Source: Candidatus Tectimicrobiota bacterium
GTDB lineage: Bacteria > UBA8248 > JACPRG01
NCBI GenBank assembly: GCA_016190025.1
Contig: JACPRG010000035.1
Location: forward strand, 1 to 14,106
Direction: 5' to 3'
Length of the DNA: 14,106 bases
Below the pieces are notes generated by a model. That model worked only from the letters and a program-made list of their open reading frames with translations. It ran no database searches and was not told the origin of the DNA. The translations under genes and the position numbers were made by a program. Of this stretch, positions 8,284 to 10,298 are shown one piece after another; position 1 is the first letter of the stretch; every line of letters starts with the position of its first letter.

Positions 8284-9258
8284 TCAGGCCCGCTTCAGGT
8301 CCCTCGCGGCGGGTAGCCCGCCCAGGGCTCGGGTCTCGGTGACGGCCCGATTGACAGAGGCCGCGACGGCCTCCTCGGCCAGAAGCCCCAGGATGTTCAG
8401 GTCCTCCTCCAGTGTCCCGGCGGACACGGCGATGATGACGTCTCCGTCCAGGGTGCTGAAGGCGGGCCGGAGCGTCTTCACCAGACCCCCGGCGGCCATC
8501 TGCGCCAGCTTTTCGGCCGAGACCCGGTCCAAGCGCGCGTCGGTCGCCACGCAGCAGAGGGTGGTGCTCTCCCCATCGAACCGGGACCGGCTGATCCCGC
8601 GGCGCATCCTCTCGGCGGTGTCGGCCAGCTCGAGGGAATCCGCAGCCGTGCGGGCGCCGGCCAGGATGCGCCCCGTCCGGGCGCAGATCACGTCCCCGAA
8701 GGCGTTGACGACGGCCAGGGCGCCCACCGTCGCGCCGCGGGGAGACCGCACCGACCAGGACCCGACCCCTCCCTTCATGGCCTGGGCAGGACCGAAAAGC
8801 TTGCCGACGGTGGCGCCGGCCCCCGCGCCCACCGAGCCTTCGGCGGGAGACCGGCCCCGGGGGCCCTCCGCGGCCAGGCAGGCCGCCCGCGCCATCTCAG
8901 GCGTCGGCCGGACGCGGTGGCTGCCAACGCCCAGGTCGTACACGATGGCGGCGGGGACGATGGGAACCGTCGTCTCCCGCGTCGGGAAGCCGACCCCCTT
9001 CTCCTCCAGGTAACGCATGACGCCGGCGGCGGCGTCCAGGCCGAAGGCACTCCCCCCGGCGAAGAAGACCGCGTCGATCCGCTCCACCAGGTGGAGGGGC
9101 CTCAGGGCGTCCATCTGCCGGGTGCCGGTGGCGGTCCCGCGCATGTCGAGCCCGCCGGCGGCGCCCTTCTCGAAGAGGACCACCGTGCAGCCGGTGAGGG
9201 CGTCCAGGTCCTCGGCATGGCCGACCCGCACGCCGGGCACGTCGCTCAGGGTGGGCAA
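8284..9258 (-). CDS. P1 family (S58, DmpA-like) self-processing aminopeptidase
   Basis: The 324-residue product belongs to the P1/DmpA family, Ntn-fold peptidases that cut themselves into two chains and then release N-terminal residues from peptides, including D- or beta-amino-acid peptides in some members. Typical segments are DVPGVRVGH (6-14), FFAGGSAFGLDAAAGV (65-80), GSVGAGAGATVGKLFG (141-156) and the processing-site region ESTTLCCVATDARLDR (230-245). In relatives the cut precedes a Thr or Ser in an N-T-T context, so T232 is the likely nucleophile, with Ser231 in the place of the usual Asn. No signal peptide is seen. The start is a TTG at 9258 with GGAGAG about 7 bases upstream and gives the family N-terminus. 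It follows the selenoprotein gene by 40 bp on the same strand, so the two are probably co-transcribed. Confidence 0.9.
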   Translation of the reverse strand: MPTLSDVPGVRVGHAEDLDALTGCTVVLFEKGAAGGLDMRGTATGTRQMDALRPLHLVERIDAVFFAGGSAFGLDAAAGVMRYLEEKGVGFPTRETTVPIVPAAIVYDLGVGSHRVRPTPEMARAACLAAEGPRGRSPAEGSVGAGAGATVGKLFGPAQAMKGGVGSWSVRSPRGATVGALAVVNAFGDVICARTGRILAGARTAADSLELADTAERMRRGISRSRFDGESTTLCCVATDARLDRVSAEKLAQMAAGGLVKTLRPAFSTLDGDVIIAVSAGTLEEDLNILGLLAEEAVAASVNRAVTETRALGGLPAARDLKRA

Positions 9259-9298: not shown

Positions 9299-9925
9299 TT
9301 AGGCCTCCCCCTCGGCCCCGAGAATCCGCTCGATCGCCCGCTCGTACTCGACGCGGGGGACGGCCCCCGTCAAGACCCGCTTGCGGCCGATGATGACGGT
9401 GGGGATGGCCCGCACGCCGAAATTCCGCACCCCCTCCACGTACTCGCGCAGGACCCCGTCCCTCTGGGAGCCGCTCAACAGGTCCTCTTGGAACCGGGGC
9501 GCGTCCAGCCCTTGCTCCTCCGCGATCCGGACCAGGACCCGGGGATCGCTGATGTTCCGGCTCTCCTCGAAGATGGCCCGCAGCAGGGCGAAGTGGTAGC
9601 GGCGGAACGCCTCCTCCCCTTGCAGGGCGGCGCACCTGGCGGCCTCCGAGGAGGGGAGGCTGTGATTGGGGAAGGGCTCCTCGCTGTGCCAGGGGTGGAA
9701 GGCCCCTCCGTCTCCCTGGGCGTTGGCGCGAAGCCAATGCTGGCGGCGGTAGTCGTTGAAGACGGAGTCGGGGTCGGGCTCGGCGCGCAGGAGGAAGGCG
9801 CGGTAGTGGACGGCGACGCGGCCCCCGTATTTTTCCCTCAGCTTTTCCAGCCGAACGGCGGAATTGTAGCACCAGGGTCAGCAGTAATCGTGATAGACGA
9901 GGATCTCCAGCGCCTCTTGGCTCAT
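9299..9925 (-). CDS. Selenocysteine-containing DsbA/FrnE-like thiol oxidoreductase (in-frame TGA = Sec16)
   Basis: Read through the in-frame TGA (9880-9878), this gene gives 208 residues ending in TAA at 9299. The N-terminus is a thioredoxin-type strand (EALEILVYHDYC), then Sec16-P17-W18-C19, exactly the CPWC active site of DsbA/FrnE proteins with the first Cys replaced. The rest matches the family: VRLEKLREKYG helix (24-34), VHYRAFLLRAEPDP (39-52), an inserted helical domain with NHSLPSSEAARCAA (87-100), and the cis-Pro loop VRAIPTVIIG (171-180). No signal peptide is present, so it is probably cytoplasmic like FrnE. ATG 9925 has AAGGGGAG about 7 bases upstream. A SECIS-like hairpin follows the TGA. 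Frameshift is excluded, as one frame runs throughout; a nonsense mutation is the alternative. An annotation that treats TGA only as a stop would lose or truncate this gene. The substrate is unknown. Confidence 0.88.
9835..9880 (-). promoter_or_regulatory. Putative bacterial SECIS element directly after the in-frame TGA
   Basis: Counting the U of UGA (9880) as nucleotide 1, UUCC (18-21) pairs with GGAA (33-36) and GCC (22-24) with GGC (29-31), with one bulged U (32) and apical loop GUUC (25-28). This hairpin spans 9863-9845. CCCU (4-7) can also pair with AGGG (43-46) as an outer stem. Bacterial SECIS hairpins need a G among the first two loop bases at roughly this distance from the UGA, to bind SelB; the loop G at nucleotide 25 (position 9856) meets this. 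The E. coli fdhF element also has a bulged U, but on the other arm. Confidence 0.75.
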
Positions 9926-10298
9926 GACGTCGCTCCCCTTGGCGAAGGTCGTGAAAGGTCTCCCTTCTTAGTTTAACCCTCCCGCCGGCCTTCTTCCAGG
10001 CGGAACGGCGATCCGCGTCACATCTGGAAAAGGACGAGGCCCATCCCCGGCGTGAGACCCCGGGGAGCGCCCCTTTCTGAAAGCGAGGGCGCATCGCCGG
10101 AGGGCCGCCGCCGTTGACGACGGATCTTGTTTTTGCTAAGAGTTTCTGGATCCAGCATGCTTTCATCCCTGAGAGAGAGTGCGGGAAGGTCCGGGGAAGC
10201 GTCTTTTGACAATGGGCGCGGGAGGAGCGTGAGATGAAACGAGGGGTTCTCAGTTGAGCGCTCCGGGGGATACGGAAGGTAGAGGGAGTTCGAACGCA
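9926..10298. other. Divergent control region between selenoprotein gene and catabolic operon
   Basis: This 373-bp region separates the two divergent transcription units and should hold both promoters. A GC-rich inverted repeat (CCCCGG with CCGGGG, about 10044-10065) and a T-run (10130-10135) are present. The short minus-strand open frame at 10018-10299 has no ribosome site or recognisable features and is not called. A perfect -35 box lies at 10206-10211. Confidence 0.35.
10206..10235 (+). promoter_or_regulatory. Candidate promoter of the aminotransferase-hydantoinase operon
   Basis: TTGACA (10206-10211) is a perfect -35 box. The best -10 candidate is TGAGAT (10230-10235) after an 18-base spacer, matching TATAAT at only three positions. 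If used, transcription would start near 10242, about 57 bases before the ATG at 10299. The weak -10 box suggests either an activator-dependent promoter or a chance match. Confidence 0.3.

Follow-up and report, generated by a model that had tools for sequence, protein, structure and literature searches.

DsbA-like selenoproteins with a UxxC motif, which the preliminary description of the locus studied here noted from bacterial and metagenomic surveys, have indeed been in print since 2005. The published work describes nine DsbA-like UxxC sequences from the Sargasso Sea, assigned to COG2761 (PMC1088965), the GOS forms DsbA 1 and DsbA 2 with UxxC and DsbA 3 with UxxV (PMC2398784), and DsbA-like selenoproteins in later catalogues (PMC1794560, PMC5029168, PMC9312934 and PMC13188914). 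In the last of these, DsbA-like form 1 is the UxxC kind, and a table gives form 2 the motif DxxUP, with an example annotated as a crotonase family protein. FrnE is presented in PMC8945050 as a cytoplasmic disulfide reductase, and a C-terminal CxxxxC motif is ascribed there to many, not all, of its members. In the literature on selenoproteins or selenocysteine (Sec) combined with Nitrospinota or Tectomicrobia, we found no report of a DsbA-like member from this lineage, and the string 'Nitrospin' is absent from the main text of PMC13188914, PMC9402790, PMC12013277, PMC5029168 and PMC9312934. Literature pairing selenoprotein with FrnE contained, judged by title, nothing on bacterial selenoproteins.

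We analyzed a stretch of DNA of 14,106 nucleotides (the window), one gene of which very probably encodes, on comparative sequence evidence, an oxidoreductase of DsbA fold, cytosolic and similar to FrnE, in which the UGA at codon 16 is read through as Sec.

Gene, predicted fold and proposed chemistry

The minus-strand frame of the gene contains a single in-frame stop, the TGA at codon 16, in the context DYC-U-PWCYN (Table 1). Translated through the TGA, the frame gives a PF01323 (DSBA) match that spans residues 8–193 at 67 bits, against a cut-off of 25.6; both flanks of this codon therefore lie in a single domain, as the preliminary description had proposed from a frame broken only by this codon. 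The NCBIfam model NF041057 was reached at 35.4 bits, below its cut-off of 190. Scans of the window gave no Rfam matches, and tRNA scans of the window and of the related locus L001 gave no tRNAs.

Table 1. Features of the locus in window coordinates.
Feature	Positions	Strand	Remarks
Predicted DsbA/FrnE-like selenoprotein gene, probable Sec at codon 16	9299..9925	-	208 residues, then TAA
In-frame TGA, probably read as Sec16, at the first-Cys place of CPWC	9878..9880	-	TGA in 19/19 DNA sequences
Cys15 codon, directly 5' of the Sec codon, not conserved	9881..9883	-	Leu in 18/18 other DNA sequences
Cys19 codon, likely resolving residue of UPWC	9869..9871	-	Invariant in alignment A2
Pro175 codon, cis-Pro of the AIPT loop	9401..9403	-	I174 and P175 invariant in alignment A2
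Putative SECIS hairpin	9845..9863	-	7 pairs, bulged U, loop GUUC at 9856-9853, 21 nt past the UGA
Shine-Dalgarno-like AAGGGGAG	9933..9940	-	Read in the sequence, seven bases 5' of the ATG
S58 (P1-type) peptidase gene	8284..9258	-	PF03576, 131 bits; 40 bases past the selenoprotein gene

The AlphaFold2 model, built from the 13 rows of alignment A1, has a mean pLDDT of 94.1 and a pTM of 0.90. Two features of the DsbA family are seen: in the model residue 16 directly precedes a helix (17–36), which places the redox motif before helix 1, and the cis-Pro loop AIPT, noted earlier, has I174 and P175 invariant in alignment A2. The best profile match in the PDB is FrnE of Deinococcus radiodurans (E 1.8e-18), and the first five Foldseek matches are all to that protein, with TM-scores of 0.77–0.82. 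UPWC fits the CP(W/F)C active site of the FrnE subfamily, and the Cys homologues have CPWC. The protein is presumably cytosolic, given its likeness to FrnE and a start with, by eye, no evident signal peptide.

In the mechanism that we propose, SelB and tRNA-Sec would insert Sec at codon 16, guided by the hairpin some 20 nt downstream. The attack on a substrate disulfide would then come from Sec16, with Cys19 as the residue that resolves the resulting Se-S intermediate and Pro175 giving the substrate site its shape. By analogy with what has been proposed for Deinococcus FrnE, the likely role would be disulfide reduction or isomerisation in the cytosol. The main functional rival is a selenoprotein with a glutathione-linked role, comparable to DsbM or the kappa-class GST, in place of the reductase role of FrnE. 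Kappa GST and Pseudomonas aeruginosa DsbM do appear among the fold matches, at ranks 16–21, but FrnE comes first by sequence and fills the first five places by fold, and the UxxC pair is kept; we consider the glutathione-linked role unlikely, if worth bearing in mind, and retain the FrnE-like assignment.

Conservation of the TGA and the selenocysteine machinery

The RelA/SpoT protein encoded in the window is 81% identical to that of a MAG named Nitrospinota bacterium (the best 7994 candidates being scored), a genome assigned by NCBI to the Nitrospinota/Tectimicrobiota group; on these grounds the window most likely belongs to the same group, on a branch outside the 18 genomes considered below. 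A scan of genome contigs yielded one relative of the selenoprotein gene, L001, from a MAG named Nitrospinae, with 47% identity and a TGA at the equivalent codon. With alignment A1 as query, 18 genomes of the phylum of L001 were then searched for orthologues. An orthologue with one in-frame TGA at the codon 16 position was found in 17 of the 18, the exception being G014, where only a distant paralogue is present; a second copy (L035), also with TGA at this position, occurs in genome G018. Together with the window these make 19 DNA sequences, every one of which has TGA, and no other codon, at the active-site place; TGA-bearing homologues, which the preliminary description had suggested looking for, do exist. 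The codon before the TGA, by comparison, specifies Cys in the window alone and Leu in the 18 relatives, and the idea that Cys15 is a conserved extra Se-S partner was accordingly rejected.

This sequence set shows purifying selection on both flanks of the TGA: among the 19 sequences pN/pS amounts to 0.22 for the 10 codons that precede it and to 0.17 for the 30 that follow, and among the 18 relatives alone it is 0.15 on either side. A control stretch upstream of the start codon has 0.90. The recurrence of the TGA at the equivalent codon in 17 of 18 genomes, with pN/pS this low relative to the control, indicates more than chance. That the UGA at codon 16 is read through in the protein is shown by comparison, at the level of sequence.

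The protein collection searched comprises 5.8 billion proteins; 15 proteins from one search and the best 120 of 196 from another gave 125 different homologues, all of which were aligned, with source names that include Candidatus Tectomicrobia, Nitrospinota and Deltaproteobacteria. Cys occupies the position of codon 16, in a CPWC motif, in 66 of the 67 listed homologues that span it, the remaining one (P0188) having Ser, which agrees with the earlier assignment of the TGA to the nucleophile of CPWC and with the Cys homologues anticipated there. The other 58 of the 125 do not extend back as far as residue 16, among them P0186, an odd protein of 152 residues. The 50 closest (P0143–P0185 and P0002–P0008) begin at window residues 21–45, past the TGA, and the active site of the UPWC group is therefore missing from the databases, much as had been predicted of standard gene callers. 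We infer that the database relatives beginning past residue 16 would have a TGA there. Seven distant homologues (P0011, P0193, P0212, P0224, P0233, P0240 and P0252) likewise begin past the active site, one of which bears the name Candidatus Methylomirabilales and is flagged as partial in its source record; it is possible that these are Sec forms in other lineages.

These truncated entries bear on a second explanation, that translation ends at the TGA and restarts downstream, the product being the shortened protein listed in databases. The called starts of the relatives, at residues 21–45, are what such a restart would look like; against it, the codons before the TGA are selected as protein (pN/pS 0.15–0.22 versus 0.90), and the product would be without the active site, which makes a restart highly improbable.

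Components of Sec insertion are widespread in the same 18 genomes. Under strict E-value limits set by us, with which fragments may go unlisted, tRNA-Sec was over the cut-off in 16 of them and SelA, SelB and SelD in 14 each, one more SelB falling below the cut-off; all four occur together in 11. By extension from these relatives, the window's own genome presumably has this machinery. Each of the 14 SelD matches (e.g. L067 and L068) contains a single in-frame TGA, as would be expected if SelD were a selenoprotein too.

Stop codon reassignment occurs in some bacteria, and in principle the TGA might be read as another amino acid, such as Trp or Cys; yet it sits at the place of the catalytic Cys, tRNA-Sec and SelB are present in the relatives, and TGA ends genes that include L019 and L031, all of which leaves a changed code barely conceivable. 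A pseudogene or sequencing error, which a stop in the only copy at hand might have suggested, is a negligible prospect given the identical stop at the identical codon in 17 of 18 genomes and selection on both flanks. All three explanations were thus judged unlikely from the conserved TGA, selection, the Sec machinery and the homologues, and the preferred reading remains the FrnE-like UxxC selenoprotein of the preliminary description, with TGA homologues in 17 of 18 genomes and FrnE as its closest solved structure.

An element just past the TGA is well supported by synonymous constraint, the hairpin structure itself being putative. Across 18 sequences (the window and L017–L033), the excess of synonymous identity peaks in the 8 codons starting at +6 past the TGA, at rank 1 of 201 windows along the alignment, with a synonymous identity of 0.81 versus 0.38 expected. 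The window hairpin has an energy of -8.1 kcal/mol and fits the SECIS limits quoted in PMC13188914. The window and L032 vary from the other sequences at several third positions yet, by eye, still pair, and the stem register is not alike between the window, L032 and the remaining sequences. The orthologues' own hairpins are in many cases weak (-3.6 to -4.3 kcal/mol). Compared with synonymous shuffles, the window hairpin gives p=0.14, and L032, at p=0.023, is the only one below 0.05 of 19. The loose form of the published SECIS rule is permissive, being satisfied by 217 of the 292 TGAs in the window, and the script applying it chose a hairpin other than that in Table 1 for the codon 16 TGA; a SECIS claim on folding energy alone was rejected in view of that p value and of this permissiveness.

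Neighbouring and related genes

The S58 peptidase gene lies next downstream in all 17 orthologue loci (L017–L033), its products being 43–53% identical, in a count in which L001 and L017 are one place and L035 runs into the end of its contig. It probably shares an operon with the selenoprotein gene. No relatives of the selenoprotein were found in viral contigs, and the single phage record and 103 plasmid records found were all below 60% identity.

The phylum genomes contain other DsbA-family matches with one in-frame TGA, whose active sites were read in fetched DNA. These are of the types UAWC (7 loci: L036–L039, L043, L044 and L113), UPYA (9 loci, 8 genes: L040–L042, L045, L046, L110, L111, L114 and L115), UP[FY]C (16 genomes; L034, L069, L075 and others), UPWA (6 loci: L099–L103 and L116) and U[PS]HC (L104, L106 and L109 read, out of six loci of this type). 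In UPYA and UPWA the TGA is at the nucleophile place and Ala stands where the motif would have its second Cys. Single genomes, for example G004 and G018, gave four types as read in DNA, and a fifth is present by the match tables. Plasmids gave one record of the UPWA type and five of the UPYA type, distant only.

A tentative reading, which we hold to be quite possible but rather short of probable, is that the lineage maintains DsbA-fold selenoproteins as a dedicated set, with up to five of the six TGA types (UPWC, UAWC, UPYA, UP[FY]C, UPWA and U[PS]HC) per genome, two of them having Sec without a second Cys, and that the UPWC type works with the conserved S58 peptidase. If this holds, the selenol of the proteins that lack the second Cys would have to act without forming an Se-S bond within the molecule. 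The lineage would in any case combine Sec machinery with several candidate DsbA-fold selenoproteins per genome.

Comparison with described DsbA-fold proteins

Like FrnE of D. radiodurans (PDB 5cp1, 5co3 and others), which has CPWC at the place of the window's Sec, the window protein appears to use a redox pair of the CPWC type, but the Deinococcus protein has Cys there, not Sec, and the two share 23–24% identity. D. radiodurans FrnE also has the C-terminal CxxxxC, which is absent from the window protein, where no Cys occurs past residue 98. We file the protein as FrnE-like, not as FrnE.

Closer to hand, Cys homologues of the same subfamily (for example P0009, P0192 and P0217) read SD(Y/F)LCPWC(Y/F)N at the Sec place; they carry Cys, not Sec, and sit on separate branches of the tree. 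In that tree, computed from 80 chosen rows of 132 with the active-site columns left out, Sec labels were given to 7 DNA-confirmed and 17 close truncated sequences and Cys labels to 49, including P0188; the labels need one change, with the 7 distant truncated rows uncounted, many forks open and support values taken from a quick search. In this lineage, a single FrnE-like enzyme could be compared directly in its Sec and Cys versions.

By their published descriptions, the DsbA-like UxxC selenoproteins resemble the window protein in the PF01323 fold and in the replacement of the first Cys by Sec. By motif alone it is also comparable to DsbA-like form 2 of PMC13188914, residues D13 to P17 reading D-x-x-U-P. 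The window protein is an addition of the Nitrospinota/Tectimicrobiota lineage to the already known DsbA-like UxxC selenoproteins.
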